A stretch of 24,887 bases of DNA from a virus. The stretch's first letter is position 1. Every line of letters starts with the position of its first letter. Position numbers and translations under genes: made by a program. The DNA lies in the IMG/VR virus record IMGVR_UViG_3300035659_001161, positions 1 to 24,887 of that record; one strand, written 5' to 3'. The notes under the pieces are model-generated. The model searched no databases. It saw nothing but the letters and a program-made list of their open reading frames with translations, and was not told where the DNA came from. Of this stretch, positions 3,033 to 21,251 are shown one piece after another.

Positions 3033-4298
3033 TCAATCAGGCTCTTCGATGTCCGAGATGCGGAATCCAGATCCGGCCCTGCTTTTGACGCCCATATTGC
3101 CGAAGATATGTCCCTCGGCGACATAGGCGTTTCGGTTGGCAACTTTCTGGAGAATCCTTCCATCTGCGCCGTAGCCCGACTCCCAGGTGATCCAGTTTTT
3201 GTTCGTGAGATGAAGCGTGAATTGGTCCTCTGCAAGTGCGATAATGTTTCCATCAGGAACAAAGAGGTCGGAGACCATCGGAATTTCTTTTCCGGCATAG
3301 TAGAAGGGAAGAGCATCCCAACCACCCCACATGACCTTCGATCCGCCTCCGAAAATCTTGAACTGCTCGAGGTGCTGTTTCCAAAGCCTGAAGATTCCCT
3401 GGGTAATGAGCATGACGCTGATCTTGGTCCCGAATCGCTCATGGTAGAGCAAAGCTTTTACGAGCAGGTCTTCATCAAACGGCCTAGCGACTCCGCCATT
3501 GGCCCAAACCTTGGCCTTCCAGTCGGGATAGCTGGCGACGGTGAGTCCCTGCAGTCCGGCACTTGCATTCGGCAACGGCGGGTCGGTGTCACGGACGATC
3601 CCCAAGATGCCCATGATCTCACCCTTGCCCACAGCCTCTGTAGCCGAATAAGCGTCCTCGGAATAAACAGCGTCATCATCAGCCCAAGTCCCGGTGGCGG
3701 CCAATGTGATCTGAGCCTCGGTATCAACCGTCAAGACGGCGATTGAGTTTACCTTCTGGCTACCCCCCGGAGTATAGATGTCGATGACTCTTTTGGGCTT
3801 GAAGAAAAGCGATCCAAGAGTTGCCTTCCAATAGGCAGAATCAATAGGCACTACTGCCGTGCCGCTTCCTAAGGCGCTACAGTCCGCCATCTTACCCGAG
3901 CCATCCGACATGAGCTGTCGGCTCATGTCATCACCGAGACCCTTAAACATTTCCTCCTGCTCAAAGGCGACCGGGTCGATGGGTGATCCTTGCTTTTTCG
4001 CAAGCTCAAGAGACAGACCCTCGAAGCCCAAGGAAAACATTTCCATTCGCTTCACCCTGAGCAGGGCTTCTGCCGGGGTGATTTCCTGGGCTGTCGGGTA
4101 GTAGTCATTCGACTTTGACCCGTAAGCCTGGGAGCCTCCGAAGTTCATCTTCTGAGAAGCGTACTTGCCTTTGGCGTCGATGCTGGTAAAGGACTTTTTG
4201 ATCTTGTCGGCAAGTTTGCTGATGGCCCTGACTTCGGAGACGACGCCTGGGGACACGATCTCGTTGAAAATCTTGTATTCAGTCGCAATATCAAACAC
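3033..4298 (-). CDS. Major capsid protein (HK97-fold type)
   Basis: 421 residues with a GTG start behind a perfect AGGAGG. It builds the icosahedral shell. Family features: an N-terminal helical arm (KLADKIKKSF), a long-axis helix with EALLRVKRMEMFSLGFEGLSL, a spine-like region DDMSRQLMSDGSGK, then a beta-rich core and a C-terminal part with FYYAGKEIPMVSDLFVPDGNIIAL and a final GSGFRISDIEEPD. Length and position (just after the scaffold gene, after portal and terminase) are typical. No fused protease or scaffold domain is present because the scaffold is a separate gene. It belongs to the portal-scaffold-capsid type operon seen in many podo- and siphoviruses. Confidence 0.88.
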   Translation of the reverse strand: MFDIATEYKIFNEIVSPGVVSEVRAISKLADKIKKSFTSIDAKGKYASQKMNFGGSQAYGSKSNDYYPTAQEITPAEALLRVKRMEMFSLGFEGLSLELAKKQGSPIDPVAFEQEEMFKGLGDDMSRQLMSDGSGKMADCSALGSGTAVVPIDSAYWKATLGSLFFKPKRVIDIYTPGGSQKVNSIAVLTVDTEAQITLAATGTWADDDAVYSEDAYSATEAVGKGEIMGILGIVRDTDPPLPNASAGLQGLTVASYPDWKAKVWANGGVARPFDEDLLVKALLYHERFGTKISVMLITQGIFRLWKQHLEQFKIFGGGSKVMWGGWDALPFYYAGKEIPMVSDLFVPDGNIIALAEDQFTLHLTNKNWITWESGYGADGRILQKVANRNAYVAEGHIFGNMGVKSRAGSGFRISDIEEPD

Positions 4299-5337: not shown

Positions 5338-5559
5338 TTATTTTTTAGGTCGGCCTCGTCTCGGGACTACAGGCCCCTGTGTTTCCTCTTTTGGTCTTGG
5401 CGTGATGGCACTCAAGACCTCTTCTTTTGGGAAAATGTATCTCTCCTCTTTGGGGTAATAGAGATAGGGAATCCTTTTCTGCCTGACAAGCTCCATAACT
5501 TCTTCCTCCGAAAAGTTAAGAAGCTCTGCCGTTTCGGTCAGGTTTAAAAGTTCTGTCAT
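5338..5559 (-). CDS. Small Xis/MerR-like HTH protein with an AT-hook-like tail
   Basis: 73 residues; ATG with GAAGGAGG upstream; overlaps the portal 3' end by 4 bases (ATGA), so it is translationally coupled. The N-terminus (LNLTETAELLNFSEEEVMELVRQKRIPYLYY...RYIFPKEEVLSAI) fits the excisionase-type winged helix-turn-helix: helix, turn, recognition helix, RIPY strand and wing. The last residues, PRRGRPKK, match an AT-hook core (RGRP). It should bind DNA. A DNA-binding protein between portal and scaffold is odd; it could regulate the late operon or be carried in the capsid. Confidence 0.65.
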   Translation of the reverse strand: MTELLNLTETAELLNFSEEEVMELVRQKRIPYLYYPKEERYIFPKEEVLSAITPRPKEETQGPVVPRRGRPKK

Positions 5560-7505
5560 CCGATTCCTCCTTCTGCGGCGATCTGCCGGATGGCCTCATC
5601 GAGCGCCCCTTCGGGCATAGCGGTTGGAGCTCCCGGCGCTGCCGGACCCGGCGCTGTTTCGGGCCTAGCCATCTCAGCCGATGCCTGAGCTTTTTGCTCT
5701 AAGTATCCCTTGTGGTCTTCGATTCTTTTGAGGATCAAGTCCTGGATTTTCTTATCCAGGGTGTCAAATTCCTCGGTCTTGCGGAAGTTATTGAAAATCT
5801 TAAAGTGAACATCATGATTGTCGTCCAGGCTTGGCACGATATAGGGTTTCCCCTGCTTAAAGAAGTCAAGTATTCTATAAGCCTGGCGCTCATCTATATA
5901 CTCGTCCTCCATGTATTCTTCGAGTCCTTTGAGATCGAGAAGTTCAAACACTTTTTTGGGGTCTGTTATCATCCCCTTCTGAATCATTGCGTCGACAACT
6001 TCTCTCTTGGCTTCGATCGACCGCATGAGATCGACGCCCGACTGGATTCTGACATCGGTATTGTTTCTTATCTCAGCACCCTTGACGTAAATAACGGAAG
6101 GTTCTTTCTGCTTGCCCGTGATCTTGACCATGCGGGGCTGGCTATAGTGCTTCTGGATAAGCTCAAGCCTGTATTTCATGGCGGCCTGGAGTTGGACTTC
6201 CTGGTCTTCAATCGCCGGGTAAAGGACTTTCTGATCCTGGGCGACGAGGCCCCGGAAAAGCTCGCCCGAGGCGCGGCTGGCATATTTCGGGAGCTGACCC
6301 TGAAGCGTTTTCCTGACGGATGTTTCGGTCTCTATTTCCGTTTCGTGAAAATTCAACCAGCGAATGATGATCTCGGGTAGCGGCGGGGGGGAGGCCCAAT
6401 AAGGGTTGCCGTAGCCGGTCGGATTAAACTCGACAAAATCAATCCCGGCGCGACAGAATGCTGCCTTCTCCCGGGAAATCAACGCTCCTCTCGGAATCAT
6501 CGCCTTGGGTTTGAAATACTGAATGTGCTCATCAATCATCGAGCCTAGTCGGTTGATCTGACGTTGCCCATCCTGAGCGATCCTTACGGAAGAATCTCCC
6601 CATTGTTCCTCAAGAATCGGCATAAGACCCATGAGCTGAAAGTAGGGAATATCCGCTTCGGGTGCGGGACTCTCATCATCCCACAGCAGGAAACCGCCCC
6701 CTATTACTGAAAAGCGACCTTTTGATCTGTTCCCTGAGCCTCTTTCCCATCTTTCCATGCGAAGGCTCATCAGTTCTCTTGGCTTTATCGCGTCGGGTCG
6801 TTGGAAAAGTCCTTGCCCGGCAGTTGCAAATGCCTCTTCGGGCAGGGTTCCGCGAGGAAGACCGAATTCATCCTCCAACGCTGTTTTCGGGACAAGCTTT
6901 CCCTCAATAAGCCAGCGCCATTCTTCTCTTGTTTTGCCGTGAGGGTCCGGCCTGACGTTGAATGGATTTACCCAGTTATAATCGACGTCCCCGCTTTCCT
7001 TGGTGGGCTTTTTATTTGGTCCCTCGACATAGCCGAACAGGTTTTTGTTCCACCATTCCTTCCAGAAAACATTGCCCGTAACCAGGGTCCACAGTTTTGC
7101 GAAATTGATTTTGTGATTAAACTGTCTGAGAACATTCGTGTATTCAATGAGGACGGAAGAGATCCCCGCAGCCTTCTTATCCTCGGATTCCGTTGTACTG
7201 GGGACGACATAGAACGAGTGCGGATAGCGCATTTCGCCCCACTGCTGACGGATTAGGGGTAGAATCCGGTTATAGACGTTCTTGATCTCGCGCTCGACCA
7301 AGGGCGTGACATCCACCAGACCTTTCAATGCCTTGCTGTAATAGGTATATTGATTGCCCTCAAGATAGGCGATGTATTCAGTCCAGGGGCCGTGATAGGT
7401 CTCGACGACGGGGTGTTTAAGCCAATACCACTCGCTCTCCTCGACGAGTTCTTTCTGGTCTCCCTTCAGGTCTTTCGGTCCTAAAGGCTGGAATTTCTCG
7501 GCCAC
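5556..7505 (-). CDS. Portal protein
   Basis: 649 residues, GTG start with AGGGGG upstream; the stop of the upstream gene abuts the start. The dodecameric portal is the DNA channel at one capsid vertex and the docking site for terminase. Features: an N-terminal region with YYSKALKGLVDVTPLVEREI and YNRILPLIRQQWGEMRYP, a core with WVNPFNVRPDPHGK and PYFQLMGLMPILEEQWGDSS, a long helical stem/wing with repeated QRQINRLGSMIDEHIQYF, and an Ala/Pro-rich C-terminus (MARPETAPGPAAPGAP). The size is in the range of P22-like portals (about 700), suggesting a podovirus-like head. Gene order downstream of terminase confirms the role. Confidence 0.82.
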   Translation of the reverse strand: MAEKFQPLGPKDLKGDQKELVEESEWYWLKHPVVETYHGPWTEYIAYLEGNQYTYYSKALKGLVDVTPLVEREIKNVYNRILPLIRQQWGEMRYPHSFYVVPSTTESEDKKAAGISSVLIEYTNVLRQFNHKINFAKLWTLVTGNVFWKEWWNKNLFGYVEGPNKKPTKESGDVDYNWVNPFNVRPDPHGKTREEWRWLIEGKLVPKTALEDEFGLPRGTLPEEAFATAGQGLFQRPDAIKPRELMSLRMERWERGSGNRSKGRFSVIGGGFLLWDDESPAPEADIPYFQLMGLMPILEEQWGDSSVRIAQDGQRQINRLGSMIDEHIQYFKPKAMIPRGALISREKAAFCRAGIDFVEFNPTGYGNPYWASPPPLPEIIIRWLNFHETEIETETSVRKTLQGQLPKYASRASGELFRGLVAQDQKVLYPAIEDQEVQLQAAMKYRLELIQKHYSQPRMVKITGKQKEPSVIYVKGAEIRNNTDVRIQSGVDLMRSIEAKREVVDAMIQKGMITDPKKVFELLDLKGLEEYMEDEYIDERQAYRILDFFKQGKPYIVPSLDDNHDVHFKIFNNFRKTEEFDTLDKKIQDLILKRIEDHKGYLEQKAQASAEMARPETAPGPAAPGAPTAMPEGALDEAIRQIAAEGGIG

Positions 7506-8575: not shown

Positions 8576-10198
8576 CTAAAACTTGGAGGCGATGGACCTC
8601 TGCCCCCTGGTTCTTTCGGACATATCCCGTCCGGCCTGCCGCTCAAAAGCCTCAATTTCTTTTTCGAGTTCATCCTTTCTCTGCTCATGCGGACCTTGCA
8701 TCTTCAGTTTTTGAGGGAGAAGCCTAATCTGGAAGTGGCCCCAAATCGTATCTATGATATCGACATTTGTTTCCTTGCCCTTGTAGTAGGTATTTATCTC
8801 ATCATCATAATCAGGAATCCCGGGGCCGGAAAGAATCTTCCGGGCCTCATAGTAGGGGATGATCTCCCCATGCCTTCTCGCTCGGGATTTTCCCTGATTG
8901 TCCCACAGGATGATGATAAGGTCTTTCCTCTTGGCCTCAAGAGAGTCCTTGAGATAGATCCCGAATTTCTCTTTCTCAATCCCTATCCAGGTAACTGGCC
9001 GCCCATCTTCCTTCGATATGTCCACCCATTCGAGAATCCATGTCTCAAGCTCCATCGGAGAGAGTTTCCGTTTTCCCGCATAGGGCAGATAAAGCGTCCC
9101 CGCCTCATCCCACTCGGCCGCGGAAAGCCCCGAGTGTGAGCTTTGCTTCTTAGTCGTACCGGCGGCGTCAACGCAGATATTCCGAATGAAGTTTTCCGGA
9201 AGTTTCTCGTACCGAACATTCCATTCGGGTCGAATGATGATCTCCTCATCCGGGATCGGGACAAGATCATAAAGGCAACTGTAGATGTACGGTCCCTGCT
9301 TCCGGCGTTTGCGCTCAAGATACTCCGTGTTCAACTTTTCGGGGAAAATGGGGTTCCCTATTCTGCCGTCTCCTTCCGCAGCGGGGCAGGAGAAGACGGC
9401 ATAGCCCGTCTCGGAGATAAACGTCTGGCAGGGCTTTCGCCAGAGCTTCTTGTAATCGAATTTCCCCTCCGGATGGAGGATGATACCCGAGACGTCATCC
9501 GTGGCCCAGGGCGTCTCAAAGATAACCTCTCTCGCGCCTTCGGCAAAGATGGACTCTAGCTGCTGCCAGCGTTTGTTCGTCTTCTTCCTCATCTCGACGG
9601 TCTGAGTGTTTATCTCGTTGCAGAGATTGTCGATCATGCCGAGCTGGTAATGGTGGCCGGTGAGAGTTTTATCCGGCGAACCGATGTCGATCTCTATTCC
9701 CTCGTGGCGGATCTTGCCCTCATCGAGACGGCAAATTTTGAATTCGTCTTTCTTCTGCGGAATGTATTTGTGAAAATACGCCTGGATGATCTCGTTTCTA
9801 AGAATCTCATATATGATCTTTTCCAAGTGATCCTGGGCCAGTTCGAAAACCCCGGAATAGATAAACGCCTTTTCCTGCGTTCTGTAGTAAGCCTGTTGGA
9901 GAAACCATTGAATCATCATGGCCCGCCCGACTGAGCTTTTGAGCATATCCCGGCCCATGAGGACGAGCTGCTGTAGGATGGGATTTTTTCTCGGGTCGAG
10001 AAAAGCACAAAGCTCCCTGTGAACCCAATTCAAGTCCTGATACTCGACTAACTTTCCGTAGCTCAGAACCCTCGTGCATAAAAAAAAGAGGTCGAAAAGG
10101 ATATGGTCTATCCAGTATTGAGGCGAGTTTTCCGTGAAATCCTGCGGCGCATCCGAAACCTCCGAGTCTATCTCAATCTTTCTCATTTCCGCTTTCAC
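8576..10198 (-). CDS. terL: Terminase large subunit (packaging ATPase/nuclease)
   Basis: 540 residues. It powers DNA packaging into the procapsid and cuts the concatemer. ATPase part: a variant Walker A GRDMLKSS at 82-89 after the hydrophobic strand QQLVLM, and a Walker B-like strand YQLGMIDN at 184-191 that is weak because the usual acidic pair is D-N. Nuclease part (RuvC fold): ICVDAAG with D344, IGIEKEKFG with E408/E410, and NVDIIDTIWGH with D480/D483. The C-terminus is charged (EQRKDELEKEIEAFERQ). The start overlaps TerS by 26 bases; an internal ATG at 10186 is a possible alternative. The TerS-TerL-portal order supports the call. Confidence 0.85.
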   Translation of the reverse strand: MKAEMRKIEIDSEVSDAPQDFTENSPQYWIDHILFDLFFLCTRVLSYGKLVEYQDLNWVHRELCAFLDPRKNPILQQLVLMGRDMLKSSVGRAMMIQWFLQQAYYRTQEKAFIYSGVFELAQDHLEKIIYEILRNEIIQAYFHKYIPQKKDEFKICRLDEGKIRHEGIEIDIGSPDKTLTGHHYQLGMIDNLCNEINTQTVEMRKKTNKRWQQLESIFAEGAREVIFETPWATDDVSGIILHPEGKFDYKKLWRKPCQTFISETGYAVFSCPAAEGDGRIGNPIFPEKLNTEYLERKRRKQGPYIYSCLYDLVPIPDEEIIIRPEWNVRYEKLPENFIRNICVDAAGTTKKQSSHSGLSAAEWDEAGTLYLPYAGKRKLSPMELETWILEWVDISKEDGRPVTWIGIEKEKFGIYLKDSLEAKRKDLIIILWDNQGKSRARRHGEIIPYYEARKILSGPGIPDYDDEINTYYKGKETNVDIIDTIWGHFQIRLLPQKLKMQGPHEQRKDELEKEIEAFERQAGRDMSERTRGQRSIASKF

Positions 10199-10715
10199 TT
10201 AGCTGCTTGTACTTCTTGTAGTTTTCGTAGTCTCTGTTCGTGAAGTGCAAGTGAACGGCCTTTTCTTCAATCTCGATTTTCTTGGCCGGGTAGTTGTCGA
10301 GAAGCTTATTCGCTTCTTGAATAAACTTTATCCTGGCGTGATGGTCCGGTTGCTCGGGCTTGAATGGATGCATAGCCTTGGTTCCATCGACTATCCCCTC
10401 AGCTATATAATTGTCGTCTATCCCCCTTGCCTGAAGAGCCTCGATGATCGGCTTGCGCTTGAGAAGCGTCGGAATGACATTCCAAGCGTTAGTCGGCGAA
10501 TAACCGGCCTGGACAGCAGCCTGCTTGTTCGTCATGCCGTGCTCGAATTTGTTGATGAGCGCCTGTTTCTGGCGGGGCTTCAATTTCTCAAACCCCAACT
10601 CCGCCATCGGCGGCTTCGGTCGCTTCCCCCTACGGAACCGCGCTATCCTCTCATTCCCGACACAGACCGGAATCCCATCAATCTCACGAATCTCAATCGT
10701 CCGCCCTTTTTTCAT
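10173..10715 (-). CDS. terS: Terminase small subunit
   Basis: 180 residues. It recognises the packaging site and loads TerL. Residues ~45-75 (LKPRQKQALINKFEHG, TNKQAAVQAGYSPTNAW) match the small-terminase N-terminal helix-turn-helix with its typical A..AGYS signature. A basic arm (RFRRGKRPKPP) precedes it. The second half is helical (HARIKFIQEANKLLDN) for oligomerisation, and the charged tail (ENYKKYKQLSESGNEKD) overlaps the TerL gene, suggesting coupled translation. The upstream gene overlaps its start by 4 bases (ATGA). Confidence 0.82.
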   Translation of the reverse strand: MKKGRTIEIREIDGIPVCVGNERIARFRRGKRPKPPMAELGFEKLKPRQKQALINKFEHGMTNKQAAVQAGYSPTNAWNVIPTLLKRKPIIEALQARGIDDNYIAEGIVDGTKAMHPFKPEQPDHHARIKFIQEANKLLDNYPAKKIEIEEKAVHLHFTNRDYENYKKYKQLSESGNEKD

Positions 10716-12908: not shown

Positions 12909-13784
12909 GTGAGTCTAGAAGTTCAGGGGACCGATTCCTCTGAGGGCAATGGGTCTTTGGGCTGGAAAGAGCGGAAGCAGTTTTTGAAGGGCAAGCTGGA
13001 CGAGCTCGCAGCGGAGATTGTCACAGATCCCGAAAAGCTCAAGGCGTTTGCAGAGCGGTGGCGGGGCGGGTTCCGGTCGTACTCGCTTTACAATCTAGTC
13101 TTGATTTGGTGTCAGCGTCCGAGTGCTACTTTGTGCGCTGGCTATCATGGCTGGCGGAAACATGGCCGGCACGTCAAGGCGGGAGAGAAGGCGCTCTGGA
13201 TTCTCGCTCCGGCGATTTTCCCGGTCAAGGGCAAGCGGGAAGACGAGACGGAAGACGAAGCGGATAAGGTCGTCAAGTATTTCTTCCCGGTCCCGGTCTT
13301 CGACTACGGCCAGACGGACGGCCAGGGCCTTATGATCGGGAATACTCAAATCAATGGCAATGGGGACGTCGATATCAAGGCGATCGCGGCGGCGTTCAAC
13401 GTCCCGGTTGAGTATTCCCAGGGCGTAGCGGACGGGCACACTGACGGCCGGAAAATCGTGATCAGCAAGCGCGAGAGCAAGGCACAAGAGGCGGCGTGCT
13501 TCTTCCATGAGCTGGCCCACGTTCTCTTGCGTCATGTCGGTGACAGGCTACCGTCCGGCGTTTCGCGGGATGTCCAAGAGCTCGAGGCAGAGTCAACGGC
13601 GTATCTCGTTGCGGCGTGTCTCGGCATCGACAATGACGGGGCCAGATTCTATCTCGGAAATTGGCAGGCATCGAAGGACAAGCTCGCCAAGAGTGCACTG
13701 CGGATTCTCTCGACGGCGGAGAAGATTCTCCGAAAGGCGAAGCCGGAGGCGTTCGGTCAACGGCTTGCGGTGGACTCGAATTGA
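12909..13784 (+). CDS. ArdC-like antirestriction protein / zinc peptidase fusion
   Basis: 291 residues, GTG start behind AGGAGGTG. Residues ~20-105 match the ArdC N-terminal single-strand DNA-binding domain (FRSYSLYNLVLIWCQRP, then GWRKHGRHVKAGEKALWILAP). Residues 195-230 match the IrrE/ImmA-type metallopeptidase: FFHELAH with H200, E201, H204, and downstream ELEAES carrying the third ligand. ArdC proteins from plasmids and phages protect incoming DNA from restriction. The acidic stretch KREDETEDEADK separates the parts. The gene is clearly GC-richer than the AT-rich genes at 11.2-12.4 kb, suggesting separate acquisition. Confidence 0.82.
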   Translation: MSLEVQGTDSSEGNGSLGWKERKQFLKGKLDELAAEIVTDPEKLKAFAERWRGGFRSYSLYNLVLIWCQRPSATLCAGYHGWRKHGRHVKAGEKALWILAPAIFPVKGKREDETEDEADKVVKYFFPVPVFDYGQTDGQGLMIGNTQINGNGDVDIKAIAAAFNVPVEYSQGVADGHTDGRKIVISKRESKAQEAACFFHELAHVLLRHVGDRLPSGVSRDVQELEAESTAYLVAACLGIDNDGARFYLGNWQASKDKLAKSALRILSTAEKILRKAKPEAFGQRLAVDSN

Positions 13785-13804: not shown

Positions 13805-14218
13805 ATGGTCAAGCGGTGCGGCTTCACTCTCCCCCGTCCGTTCATCATCCTATCGAATAAGGGTTTGAAAAGAAACGGCTACCGAAAATACATAATCTAT
13901 CCTGACCTATCGCGGTTCAAGAAGGCGTGTCTTAATTGTCCTCATCGTCAGGTTAAGGGCAAGCGGTCAACCTGTGCGATTGGTGATCGGGATTTCATGC
14001 TCAAGTTTTATGGTATTGACGAGAGCGCCGGGGTCGGCGTCTTGGTATGTCTCGGTTCTGTTCCCGGAGACATACAGACCAGGGCTGTGGGGCGTGAAGC
14101 TCTGGCCTATATTTCTAATCATGCTCCAAAGACGAACGGAAGGGAGTCTATACGTCTTAAAAAAACAGGCTCCCTGACGGATGGAAAGACATCTTGCTTG
14201 TCGTCCATAAGAAAGTAA
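13805..14218 (+). CDS. Hypothetical protein with Cys motif
   Basis: 137 residues from ATG 13805, behind GGGGAGGGTGAGG; a start further upstream would overlap ArdC. Contains KACLNCPHRQVKG and STCAIGDRDF (CxxC plus a later Cys), and LVCLGSVPGD; the tail is basic (SIRLKKTGSLTDGKTSC). It may be the second gene of the ArdC operon. No family recognised. Confidence 0.6.
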   Translation: MVKRCGFTLPRPFIILSNKGLKRNGYRKYIIYPDLSRFKKACLNCPHRQVKGKRSTCAIGDRDFMLKFYGIDESAGVGVLVCLGSVPGDIQTRAVGREALAYISNHAPKTNGRESIRLKKTGSLTDGKTSCLSSIRK

Positions 14219-14247
14219 AGACGGCGTGAGGCAGTGCGTTAAACTCC

Positions 14248-14475
14248 TCATCCTGGCAAGGATGACAAAAAAATATGCGGTTCTTTGACAACCTGGGATC
14301 GGTGACGGTCGAGACCTTATGAAAGGTCGGCCATCTTGGACGCGTGCGAACGTGGTCGGGAGCGGGGACAGTCGGGCGTCTTGTCCCTGCGTCCAGTGAC
14401 TAAGCAAAGGTTGTCTTAGGCCAGGAGAGTCTTCCGGCTCTCCCCTAATCTCTCAAGAGGTTGAGGGTTTAGGGG
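14248..14475 (+). ncRNA. Candidate structured RNA or long structured leader
   Basis: Between genes ending at 14218 and starting at 14496 there is no convincing ORF, but many nested perfect stems: TCATCCT/AGGATGA (14248-14265, GGCA loop); GGTC-GACCTT/AAGGTC-GGCC (14307-14332); GGACGC/GCGTCC (14338-14343 with 14389-14394) enclosing GGGACA/TGTCCC (14365-14370 with 14382-14387); CTAAG/CTTAG (14400-14404 with 14415-14419); GGAGAG/CTCTCC (14424-14429 with 14438-14443); and CCCCTAA/TTAGGGG (14442-14448 with 14469-14475). The last two share bases and could alternate. The ribosome site of the next gene (GGAGG at about 14482) follows, so a regulatory leader is possible. No known RNA family recognised. 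Confidence 0.45.
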
Positions 14476-14495
14476 ATCGCCGGAGGTCGATCAAG

Positions 14496-14696
14496 ATGAC
14501 AAGGCTAACAAAGCTGAGACGTGAGGTCCGCTCTCATTCCTTGGCGCGTCCCTTGATCGTGCAGCTTGAGGCCAGGATGGGCGGTGATGGGGCCATCCTG
14601 ACGATGTGGGAGAAGCACTGCCGGAACCGGTACAAGGTGTCGCTGGTGGAGCTTTTTCAGCGGCTTGTTTATGAGGAGGTGAGACGGCGAAAGTAA
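14496..14696 (+). CDS. Small basic protein, possible DNA-binding
   Basis: 66 residues; ATG 9 bases after GGAGG. Very basic: MTRLTKLRREVRSHSLARPL, then a helix (LEARMGGDGAILTMWEKHCRNRY) and an end helix (SLVELFQRLVYEEVRRRK). It follows the structured gap directly, so that gap may control it. It lies 50 bases before the ribbon-helix-helix gene. Function unknown. Confidence 0.6.
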   Translation: MTRLTKLRREVRSHSLARPLIVQLEARMGGDGAILTMWEKHCRNRYKVSLVELFQRLVYEEVRRRK

Positions 14697-14710
14697 AGAG
14701 AACAATTATG

Positions 14711-14736
14711 TGATAAAATAAACCTATGATAAAATA
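14711..14736 (+). promoter_or_regulatory. Tandem TGATAAAATA repeat upstream of the ribbon-helix-helix gene
   Basis: TGATAAAATA occurs at 14711-14720 and 14727-14736, 16 bp apart, directly before AGGAGGAG of the next gene. Ribbon-helix-helix proteins usually bind tandem short sites on their own promoters, so autoregulation is a reasonable guess. Confidence 0.4.
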
Positions 14737-14746
14737 GGAGGAGAAA

Positions 14747-14929
14747 ATGAGTCCAATCAATAAACCGCATGACATTCAGTTTCGGCTTCCGAAAAACAAA
14801 AAGTGGATAAAGGAAGAGCTGGTCAGGATAGGACAGGAGAACGGCTTGCCTCTGTCGCAACTCTTAACTATGATCCTCAGCTCCTGGCTCAAGGGTAGGC
14901 GGGGGAAAAAGATTTCCTTGGGCCTCTAG
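14747..14929 (+). CDS. Ribbon-helix-helix-like small protein
   Basis: 60 residues with a strong AGGAGGAG site. Layout: beta strand HDIQFRLP, helix KKWIKEELVRIGQENG, turn LPLSQ, helix LLTMILSSWLKG, then a basic tail RRGKK. This is the Arc/MetJ-type fold by pattern, acting as a dimeric DNA-binding regulator. It is the last rightward gene before the convergent integrase, with 172 non-coding bases after it. Confidence 0.6.
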   Translation: MSPINKPHDIQFRLPKNKKWIKEELVRIGQENGLPLSQLLTMILSSWLKGRRGKKISLGL

Positions 14930-15101: not shown

Positions 15102-16166
15102 TTATTTAGCTGTTATTTCGTCCAGGTATTTCCCCAATTTCTCCACAGTTTGACGCTGTTCATCCATTCCCGGATGCGTGTATTGGAGGGTGGTCTTGAT
15201 ATCAGCATGGCCGAGGACAACCTTGGCCGTGGCTAGAGAGGACTGGGAGCTGATGATGGTCGAGGCCGTGTGCCGGAGGGCGTGAAAGGTAAAGTCTGAG
15301 ATCCCGGTTCTCTTTCTGAGGGCGTGGACGACATGGAAGACGGCGTTAGGGTTTCTCCACTTGATAGGAAAAACATAATCGTCTTTGGATTTGTATTGCT
15401 CAACGATGGCTCTGGCTTGTTGGTTAAGCAGGATGATTCTAAATCTCTGCTGACGGGAGGGCTGCCGACGCCGACTCTTTGTTTCGGATAGCGGATAATA
15501 GATCACATCGTTTATGACGTAGGATTTCTTTAGGAAAAGAATCTCCGATAGCCTCATCCCTGTATTAAGGGCAAACAGTACAAGGTCATAGATAATCGCC
15601 TGGATTTTCGTTCTTGGTTTCGTCTGCATTTCCATAGCCGCGCCGAGCAGGGAGACAAGTTCATCTCGACTGAGAGCTCTGCGTCCGCCGCTCTCCGCAA
15701 AGAATTCGTAACCTTTCAGTATGTTCTCCCGAAGGTATCCCTCCTCAATGGCAAGGTTAAAGAAATGGCGGAGCATTTCGAAGTATCGGTTGACAGTGGA
15801 ATGTTCTAGCTTTCGTTCTTCAAGAAGATATTTTTCAAGCCGCTCAAGGTGGGCCTTGGTAATCATCGGAAGGTGGGGATCGCCCCATAGTCCGGCGACT
15901 ATCTCAAGCCGTTGAGAGTCCCGGTCCCACGACTTCTTGTATTTTTTCCGTTCGAGGTAGCGTTCGATAAAGGCAGATAGGGTGATCGGTTCGGCTTTGC
16001 CGTAGGCTAAACCGAAATGCCGCGCAACGATCTCATTCTCGACTTGCTCCAGCCGTTCAGAGAGGAGTCGTTCCTGACCTTTGCGAAGTTTAAGTGCCTT
16101 GTAATATAGCTTGCCTTCGATCTGCCTTCGGAAGTGATACCAGCCGGACTTGAGATAGAGGCCCAT
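15102..16166 (-). CDS. int: Phage integrase, tyrosine recombinase
   Basis: 354 residues. It inserts and excises the phage genome at attP/attB. N-terminal arm-type part (residues 1-55), SAM-like core-binding domain (~60-155, ITLSAFIERYLERKK...), and a C-terminal catalytic domain with the complete set: R205 (NTGMRLSEI), K230 (ETKSRRR), H295 and R298 (HALRHT), H320 (VLGHADIKTT) and nucleophile Y329 (LQYTH). Full length. The ATG abuts the stop of the lipoprotein gene (TGAATG), placing integrase last in the repressor-lipoprotein-integrase operon. Its 3' end lies next to the tRNA-Leu-like site. Confidence 0.93.
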   Translation of the reverse strand: MGLYLKSGWYHFRRQIEGKLYYKALKLRKGQERLLSERLEQVENEIVARHFGLAYGKAEPITLSAFIERYLERKKYKKSWDRDSQRLEIVAGLWGDPHLPMITKAHLERLEKYLLEERKLEHSTVNRYFEMLRHFFNLAIEEGYLRENILKGYEFFAESGGRRALSRDELVSLLGAAMEMQTKPRTKIQAIIYDLVLFALNTGMRLSEILFLKKSYVINDVIYYPLSETKSRRRQPSRQQRFRIILLNQQARAIVEQYKSKDDYVFPIKWRNPNAVFHVVHALRKRTGISDFTFHALRHTASTIISSQSSLATAKVVLGHADIKTTLQYTHPGMDEQRQTVEKLGKYLDEITAK

Positions 16167-16562
16167 TCAGTCTTTTATCTTGGCGGCTTCCCTTTTCAAT
16201 TCGTCGAGGATTCTTTGTATTTCAAAACTCAACTTGAATGTCTCCATTCTGTTGATACTTTGCAGCATACTTTCATAAACCATTAAGTTGGAGAACGAAT
16301 TGAACGGCGAAAAAAGATAAGGCTGGTATAAATAGAATGGGTATTTATCTGGATTCTTTATAATCGAGAAGGCATAAAGTCCCAAGAGAAGATCAAGAGA
16401 GCTGTCGTTATAGGTCAAAAGACTTGGGCTGGCATTGGGTGGGCCGAAAAGCTCATTGTCTCTCTGCTGTAATTCCTGTCTGTAAACCTTCTGGTATTCC
16501 CTGATCGACGCGCAGGAGAACAAAAGAACCAGGGCAACAAATCCGATAAGCGCTTTTCTCAT
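16167..16562 (-). CDS. Predicted lipoprotein in the lysogeny operon
   Basis: 131 residues. Signal peptide MRKALIGFVALVLLFSC with lipobox LFSC (C17), so a lipid-anchored protein is predicted. The mature part is aromatic- and Asn-rich (YPFYLYQPYLFSPFNSFSNL) and ends in a charged helix (FEIQRILDELKREAAKIKD). Lying between repressor and integrase, it should be expressed in the lysogen. Phage lipoproteins in this position can block superinfection or alter the surface (for example T5 Llp-type), but no family match is seen here. Confidence 0.7.
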   Translation of the reverse strand: MRKALIGFVALVLLFSCASIREYQKVYRQELQQRDNELFGPPNASPSLLTYNDSSLDLLLGLYAFSIIKNPDKYPFYLYQPYLFSPFNSFSNLMVYESMLQSINRMETFKLSFEIQRILDELKREAAKIKD

Positions 16563-16573
16563 TTGGTTTCCCC

Positions 16574-16810
16574 CTATTTTTTTTGATGATTCTCGATCTC
16601 GTTAATCAACTCTGTTGTCGTCATCCGCATCGACTTGGCTATTTTATAGATGGTATCGAGCCTTGGATTGCTGACGTTCCCGCAGAAAATATGAGAAACA
16701 TAGCTCCGTTTAATTTTCGTGGTCCGGCTTACATCACCTTGTGTCATCCGCTTTTCCCTGATAAGCCTCTTGAGGGTCTTACCAATAACGCTGCCACTAA
16801 TCTCGCACAT
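16574..16810 (-). CDS. Repressor, Cro/CI-type helix-turn-helix
   Basis: 78 residues, ATG with AAGGAG. XRE-type HTH: IGKTLKRLIREKRMTQGDVSRTTKIKRSYVSHIFCGNVSNPRLDTIYKIAKSMRM, covering the five helices, with TQGDVSRTTKI-KRSYVSHI as the HTH core. There is no peptidase/dimerisation domain, so it is a small P22-Arc/phage-434-Cro-sized protein. It is first in the operon with the lipoprotein and integrase, which suits a lysogeny repressor; a Cro-like role cannot be excluded. Reads from the promoter at 16857-16884. Confidence 0.78.
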   Translation of the reverse strand: MCEISGSVIGKTLKRLIREKRMTQGDVSRTTKIKRSYVSHIFCGNVSNPRLDTIYKIAKSMRMTTTELINEIENHQKK

Positions 16811-20909: not shown

Positions 20910-21170
20910 ATGAATCAGGTACAAGCTATCGCGATTGTGATGGCTGTCATGCAGTTCTTTAAAAAGGTACTGCCGACAATCATCAAGGACATGGTGGCGA
21001 GTGTGCTTACGGTAATCCTAAGCGTCATCGTCGTCGTGTTCAAGTACGTCAGCGAAGGCCTACCCCTCAATTTCGGCGCAATCACTTTCCTGGTTGAAGT
21101 GATCGTCGGAGCGATGGGAGGCTATGGCCTACTGAAAGTCGCTGGAGGAGCGGCGAACGGGCCTAGCTGA
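20910..21170 (+). CDS. Holin-like membrane protein
   Basis: 86 residues; AAGGAGG ribosome site. Two to three predicted transmembrane helices: QAIAIVMAVMQFF, then KDMVASVLTVILSVIVVVF, and ITFLVEVIVGAMGGYGLL. Size and layout fit class II holins, though the lysis cluster is normally late and no endolysin gene is visible beside it. It could also be a toxin-like membrane protein. Function inferred only. Confidence 0.5.
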   Translation: MNQVQAIAIVMAVMQFFKKVLPTIIKDMVASVLTVILSVIVVVFKYVSEGLPLNFGAITFLVEVIVGAMGGYGLLKVAGGAANGPS

Positions 21171-21183
21171 AGTTATTGAGCGA

Positions 21184-21220
21184 GGGGGCCGGGTGGTACA
21201 GGAGAGGACGCTCGGCCCCC
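21184..21220 (+). other. GC-rich hairpin between operon segments
   Basis: GGGGGCCG (21184-21191) pairs with CGGCCCCC (21213-21220), 21-base loop. No T-run follows, so it is at most a weak terminator or an RNA stability hairpin between the holin-like gene and 21252. Confidence 0.35.
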
Positions 21221-21251
21221 GAAGGGTCAATGACAATTTGAGAAAAGACGG

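Follow-up and report, generated by a model that had tools for sequence, protein, structure and literature searches.

Genes of the virus record

The window, by which the whole stretch of analysed DNA is meant, is a 24,887-base IMG/VR virus record (G000), apparently from a temperate, tailed prokaryotic virus. Structural genes occupy its left part on the minus strand. A group of plus-strand genes ends with a YopX-like gene (11961), an ArdC-like gene, the gene of a 137-aa cysteine-bearing protein, a gap, and two small ORFs (14496 and 14747). RecT-like, exonuclease and SSB genes lie on the plus strand beyond the integrase and HTH genes. The principal genes are:

3033-4298, minus strand: major head protein, left part of the window
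5556-7505, minus strand: portal, left part of the window
8576-10198 and 10173-10715, minus strand: terminase, left part of the window
12909-13784, plus strand: ArdC-like anti-restriction protein with an M78/IrrE-like metallopeptidase domain (Pfam ArdcN 4.3e-9, Peptidase_M78 4.4e-5)
13805-14218, plus strand: 137-aa protein (P0001) with conserved C5, C42-x2-C45 and C57 and many Lys/Arg residues, directly upstream of the RNA in both phages described below
15102-16810, minus strand: integrase and HTH protein, 3' of the plus-strand group

For the terminase large subunit (8576-10198), the sole match among phage records by tblastn was ANMV-1, a virus of an uncultured archaeon (27% over half of the protein). 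The 60-aa ORF at 14747-14929, located about 170 nt from the convergent integrase gene, gave a sub-threshold match to DUF1233, a putative excisionase (E 0.004).

The 13805 protein had no Pfam match at E 1 and no recognised RNA-binding domain; comparison with PHROGs gave a weak match (0.0011) to a family of unknown function and none to a family of known function, and P0001 gave no match by tblastn. Its predicted structure (mean pLDDT 50.9) was too poor for a fold search. Searches with the protein family (A1) detected no relatives in genome contigs (0/45), and in three phyla (246, 247 and 199 genomes) nothing convincing was matched; its weak matches (L139-L147, E 7e-4 to 0.0075) lay mostly within long ORFs.

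Folding and conservation of the untranslated gap

Between the 13805 and 14496 reading frames, 277 nt (14219 to 14495) are untranslated. The original prediction had described 14248-14475 as a densely structured gap and a candidate new phage RNA, to be checked by folding energy against shuffled sequence and by compensatory changes in homologs. The minimum free energy of 14248-14475 was -100.4 kcal/mol, compared with -77.7 (sd 4.35) in dinucleotide shuffles (n=200), which corresponds to a z score of -5.21 with 0/200 shuffles as good; the energy check was thus passed. The minus strand of the same interval gave a z score of -3.60. As a second control, 228-nt tiles were taken from both strands of the window, one per 456 nt with the gap excluded (n=108); their mean z was -0.14 (sd 1.04), and 0/108 matched that of the gap. 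The second-best folding tile of the window (z -4.34) fell in the region 20910-21250, where an 86-aa ORF (20910-21170) that has membrane-like stretches is followed by a strong G+C-rich hairpin (~21180-21222).

The window contained no match to Rfam 15 at the gathering threshold, and at E values up to 5 only sR60 was reported, on the minus strand and at 14.2 bits where the cut-off is 50. Neither tRNA nor tmRNA was detected in the window, and scans found no promoter-like site on the plus strand just upstream of the RNA and no terminator-like site behind it. The gap apparently encodes a folded non-coding RNA, whose features, all on the plus strand, are as follows:

about 14233-14424, plus strand: conserved structured RNA core (conserved part to about 14420), from fold (z -5.21), covariance model and covariation
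14248-14265, plus strand: H1 hairpin TCATCCT/AGGATGA, 7 pairs with a 4-nt loop, from covariation; in both phages it precedes the boxA-like motif by 14 nt
14280-14290, plus strand: boxA-like motif GTTCTTTGACA, identical in both phages
14287-14293, plus strand: 5' strand of helix P1, overlapping the 3' half of boxA; 2/7 pairs double-changed and kept
14301-14338, plus strand: P2 stem-loop, outer 14301-14310/14329-14338 and inner 14313-14318/14323-14328 (GACCTT/AAGGTC); 4 double changes kept
14338-14343/14389-14394 and 14365-14370/14382-14387, plus strand: nested stems GGACGC/GCGTCC around GGGACA/TGTCCC, read from sequence
14341-14354, plus strand: P3 hairpin CGCGT[GCGA]ACGTG, from the fold; a different hairpin at the same place in L028, with no base-by-base alignment
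14364-14394, plus strand: conserved blocks GGGGACAG and GCGTCC separated by 17 nt, spacing equal in both phages
14398-14408, plus strand: conserved linker GACTAAG(C/T)AAA before the P1 3' strand, both phages
14409-14415, plus strand: 3' strand of P1, GGTTGTC, extended by TTAGG at 14416-14420
14424-14475, plus strand: two mutually exclusive, window-specific tail hairpins, from sequence and fold; another hairpin here in L028
14475-14492, plus strand: GATCG/CGATC hairpin with GGAGG in its loop, the likely ribosome-binding site of the 14496 ORF; window only, absent from L028

When viral contigs were scanned with the 13805 protein, 2/8 candidate stretches were confirmed. One is a near-identical fragment, IMGVR_UViG_3300035660_000490 (L029, L030, L034), in which ArdC and residues 1-55 of the 13805 protein are 100% identical and which ends before the RNA. 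The other, L028, is the 44-kb contig IMGVR_UViG_3300024353_000013, of which stretches L031 and L033 were compared; it carries a diverged copy of the RNA in the same position, behind homologous genes. Its untranslated stretch has in common with the window the sequences GCAGT-CGTTAAA, GTTCTTTGACA, GGGGACAG followed after 17 nt by GCGTCC, and GACTAAGnAAA, and its own fold has a z score of -2.95.

Twenty-one window proteins were compared with L033 and L031, which cover only part of the L028 contig. Identity reached 56% for the ArdC-like protein (293 aa, in L033) and 55% for the 13805 protein, whereas the RecT-like (33%) and SSB (34%) proteins are distant relatives. Two other proteins gave marginal matches in the contig stretches (E 0.016 and 0.024); at E 0.05, tblastn found no match in L031/L033 for the 14496, 14747, integrase, HTH, YopX and structural proteins. 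Since ArdC and the 13805 protein are 55-56% identical and the other neighbours tested reach at most 34% or are unmatched, ArdC, the 13805 protein and the RNA behave as one cassette, of which the ArdC-like gene is the first gene. In L028, back-to-back promoter-like sites (L028:4976-5040) separate a 61-aa ORF that runs leftward from a ribbon-helix-helix ORF that runs rightward; the minus-strand site (5003-4976) matches the sigma-70 consensus at 12/12 positions and points towards the RNA, and the plus-strand site matches at 10/12.

Five helices, with 35 pairs between them, could be aligned to both sequences: H1, the core and extension of P1, and the outer and inner parts of P2. Pairs were formed at 30/35 positions in the window and 34/35 in L028. 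Twenty pairs differ between the phages, of which 19 pair in L028 and 14 in both, and all double-sided changes (9/9) pair in both phages; when the 3' strands were slid by 1 to 4 positions either way, only 0-3 double changes did so. The compensatory changes sought in a homolog were thus seen in L028. This pair-count alignment leans towards structure, being hand-fitted around fixed anchors, and the slid control uses the same fit; the binomial tail of 1e-7 for the pair counts assumes independent pairs and is not a usable probability. In H1, 3/7 pairs are double-changed and kept and one single-side change is kept, with identical geometry in both phages (7 pairs, 4-nt loop, exactly 14 nt from the boxA-like motif), while P1 reads GACAACC/GGTTGTC in the window and GACAGGC/GCCTGTC in L028. 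A covariance model built from the window alone is independent of the hand-fitted alignment; with this model the L028 copy was the best non-self match in 38.8 kb (19.4 bits, E 8e-4; next E 0.22), and the Infernal alignment of L028 to it placed P1 and did not place H1.

RNAalifold z scores on the anchored alignment were equal on the two strands (-5.58 and -5.65). The helix cells include 12 G-U (3 in the window, 9 in L028) against one A-C, which favours a plus-strand RNA, and the RNA is most likely read on this strand. A minus-strand transcript was set aside as less likely, since the 12 G-U cells would become A-C mismatches, though the L028 minus-strand promoter-like site points at the RNA. Because the fold exceeds both shuffles and tiles, a diverged copy exists in L028, and its compensatory changes go beyond the slid controls, the gap very probably holds a real, conserved, structured plus-strand RNA with two members.

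The stems named in the original prediction were present in the sequence where they had been placed and were stronger than chance by the shuffles, and the candidate phage RNA itself was borne out by energy and by a homolog with compensatory changes. The stem list nevertheless omitted the most telling helix, the long-range pairing 14287-14293/14409-14415. The nested stems exist in the window without base-by-base conservation, GGACGC and TGTCCC both being absent from the homologous L028 stretch; a strong window-specific helix, GCGGGGACA/TGTCCCTGC, overlaps the conserved blocks at 14364-14394. The tail stems after 14424, GGAGAG (14424-14429)/CTCTCC (14438-14443) and CCCCTAA (14442-14448)/TTAGGGG (14469-14475), which contest bases 14442-14443, likewise showed no base-by-base conservation in L028.

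The boxA-like motif and searches for further members

The motif GTTCTTTGACA is the window's single exact match to GYTCTTTRACA. L031 (14.2 kb) likewise contains just one, the L028 copy, and both are at the RNA. Its 3' half forms the 5' strand of the covarying closing helix P1. The wider boxA form is GYTCTTTRANA, and the A to G form occurs in other phyla, for example in Bacillus. In the portion of PMC5725501 consulted, the boxA consensus of gamma-proteobacteria is GYTCTTTAANA; GTTCTTTGACA differs from it by one A to G change (position 8), and the boxA of the host may be other than GTTCTTTGACA. A second boxA-like site, GTTCTTTAAAA at 20954 beside the second-best folding tile, was dismissed because it lies inside the 86-aa ORF 20910-21170. 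The hexamer TTGACA (14285-14290) was rejected as a promoter element, since the window scan found no -10 hexamer at proper spacing.

The form GTTCTTTGACANNY was searched in 20 genomes of many phyla, 14 of which had a match (29 loci). Only one of the 29 lay clearly ahead of a 16S gene and two more probably in a spacer, most being away from rRNA, so the 11-mer alone proves little. The clear case is L129 in a planctomycete MAG (G014), where GTTCTTTGACAACTTGG lies ahead of the 16S start and agrees with the window in 16/17 letters; this placement was judged by eye, and the automatic landmark check missed the locus. Two loci of the same genome (L135 and L137) have a spacer-like setting, L135 after a tRNA-like sequence. 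In two further sets of 59 genomes each, another planctomycete locus (L151) carries GTTCTTTGACAATTTGG 358 nt after the 16S end landmark and 92 nt before the 23S start landmark; the rrn setting was absent in the other 11 of the 12 loci (L148-L159). Given the placements of the identical 11-mer in L129 and L151, some planctomycetes do have this form as a genuine boxA of their rrn operons. In the rrn leader at L129 a complementary TTGTCAAG, read by eye, lies downstream of the boxA (TTGACAA), and pairing of a boxA with a later strand may therefore not be unique to the phage RNA. There is about an even chance that the motif of the phage RNA is used as a boxA.

Three pattern scans of viral sequences returned 2, 3 and 44 stretches, and in each the boxA with a paired P1 strand occurred in one, the L028 contig. 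The pattern GAGACCTTnnGAAAGGTC gave 26 loci, for which blastn against window 14201-14800 returned only short matches and the motif check yielded no member. Among viral contigs, relatives of the 14496 protein yielded no stretch (0/12) and relatives of ArdC one (1/14), the near-identical fragment. A genome pattern scan gave 29 loci, and in the 260 nt upstream of each TTTGACAnnC was absent; it is a weak negative, since its pattern fits L028 and not the window, the linker being one base shorter. Pattern scans of four phyla gave 0/284, 0/291, 1/287 (L160, with no P1 partner) and 0/287 genomes, and DNA searches of phages and plasmids gave no match. The RNA family seems to be rare in the sequences searched, or fast-changing.

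Proposed role and comparison with known systems

It is proposed tentatively, at somewhat less than an even chance, that this structured non-coding plus-strand RNA recruits the host Nus complex through its boxA site. The best reading is a boxA element, either nut-like or belonging to a boxA-protected non-coding RNA, that ends a cassette of ArdC, a small Cys-protein and the RNA. The operon transcript would leave translated sequence after the stop codon of the 13805 gene, whereupon NusB/S10 would bind GTTCTTTGACA and load onto RNA polymerase, allowing the untranslated folded stretch to be read without Rho termination and to fold correctly, as in rRNA leaders. Some 115-145 nt later the 3' strand of P1 would emerge, pair with the 3' half of boxA and close the domain. 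Since the partner of the returning strand is boxA's own 3' half, binding of NusB/S10 would be expected to preclude closure of P1 and the reverse, and closure would release or exclude NusB/S10 as a built-in ruler. The finished RNA would be the third product of the cassette, and the 13805 protein may bind it. This load-and-release mechanism as a whole we infer from sequence features. A Nus-factor role is a more specific proposal than the original prediction, which did not include the boxA motif.

Several points weigh against this reading: a simple loading site would hardly be one that P1 conceals, the motif could be kept only for P1 pairing, though its partner changed, and the scan showed behind the RNA no terminator-like site that would call for antitermination. 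An RNA acting in trans as a small RNA or decoy, with no link to Nus factors and with GTTCTTTGACA kept as a P1 strand or as some other binding site, is a doubtful possibility that deserves mention: the fold is compact and covarying, the GACTAAGnAAA and GGGGACAG blocks could be target sites, and the RNA is conserved at the end of an anti-restriction cassette. Against it, the scan found no promoter-like site just upstream on the plus strand, the 5' end of the motif (GTTC) is identical although it is not part of the P1 core, and the motif stayed constant despite changes in the bases it pairs with in P1. The adjacency of the RNA and the 13805 gene and their co-conservation in both phages, together with the conserved C5, C42, C45 and C57 and the basic character of the protein, would also suit a cis site on the cassette mRNA that this Cys/Lys-rich protein binds for autoregulation, mRNA stabilisation or N-like antitermination with boxA; with no recognised RNA-binding domain and a predicted structure too poor to judge, such a site is considered unlikely. 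A further elaboration, in which the RNA forms a class of its own among phage RNAs and mimics a pre-rRNA leader, capturing NusB/S10 at boxA and releasing them on a timer set by the P1 loop length, so that an anti-restriction cassette would come with protection of the phage transcript or, in trans, withdrawal of Nus factors from host rRNA synthesis, appears unlikely.

A DNA element, such as a replication origin or a recombination or packaging site whose inverted repeats merely resemble RNA stems, is very unlikely. In the window an integrase gene is found at a distance of 0.6 kb, inverted repeats can also act in ssDNA, and the equal RNAalifold z scores on the two strands would fit; the 12 G-U cells in the conserved helices are, however, those expected of a plus-strand RNA, no integrase match was found near the L028 copy, and a boxA-like motif is present. 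The suggestion that the stretch is a switching leader of the 14496 gene was rejected and is regarded as highly improbable, despite the mutually exclusive tail stems of the window and the GGAGG held in a hairpin loop before ATG 14496. The conserved core stops about 75 nt ahead of that gene, and the RNA is kept in L028 although L031/L033 have no match to the 14496 gene at E 0.05 and no plus-strand gene lies directly behind the L028 RNA.

No phage non-coding RNA with a boxA was found in the literature searched, which was mostly open-access; within that literature few boxA-bearing RNAs have been described beyond lambdoid phages, rRNA, suhB and CRISPR leaders. A covarying RNA with its own boxA in the closing helix would make it possible to test, in a small system and by altering one helix, how Nus factors load and are released, and would add an RNA part to the ArdC anti-restriction cassette.

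In the lambda nut layout the hairpin lies downstream of boxA and the element stands in the early leader. Like the nut sites (boxA/boxB, N protein), the phage RNA combines a phage boxA with a nearby hairpin and has a small basic protein gene close by, but its hairpin precedes boxA, conserved structure continues behind for about 130 nt, and it is not in an early leader; the 13805 protein, unlike lambda N, is Cys-bearing and is unrelated to it by any search made. HK022 put works independently of Nus proteins and is not known to contain a boxA, CRISPR arrays have a boxA site in a simple leader, and GOLLD and ROOL are structured non-coding RNAs linked to phages. According to the parts of the sources consulted, HK022 put is a phage RNA structure acting on the elongation complex (PMC9378689), GOLLD and ROOL RNAs are large and homo-oligomeric (PMC12286853), and the suhB 5' UTR carries a boxA (PMC5725501). 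The put and window RNAs, both phage RNA structures, are likened by description only. GOLLD and ROOL differ from the window RNA in being large and homo-oligomeric, and the window RNA has no Rfam match. The suhB and CRISPR boxA sites likewise lie outside rRNA on untranslated RNA, in simple leaders there and within a covarying fold here.

The rrn boxA (leader and 16S-23S spacer; NusB/NusE(S10)/NusA/NusG/SuhB) resembles the phage RNA in the GTTCTTTGACA motif, in an upstream hairpin and in a long-range helix that forms once boxA has been made. The consulted portion of PMC10250234 describes the boxA of E. coli rRNA operons as flanked by boxB and boxC and as both required and enough for assembly of the antitermination complex; boxA is proposed there to remain tethered, with the transcript looping out, up to the point at which leader and trailer pair. 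The phage RNA has no rRNA behind it, and its long-range helix uses the 3' half of boxA, whereas the E. coli leader-trailer helix contains boxC, 18-19 nt downstream of boxA (PMC10250234, same portion). The order of hairpin, boxA, looped-out folded domain and back-pairing strand in the phage RNA is nonetheless the same as in rrn, where that portion of PMC10250234 gives boxB, boxA and boxC.
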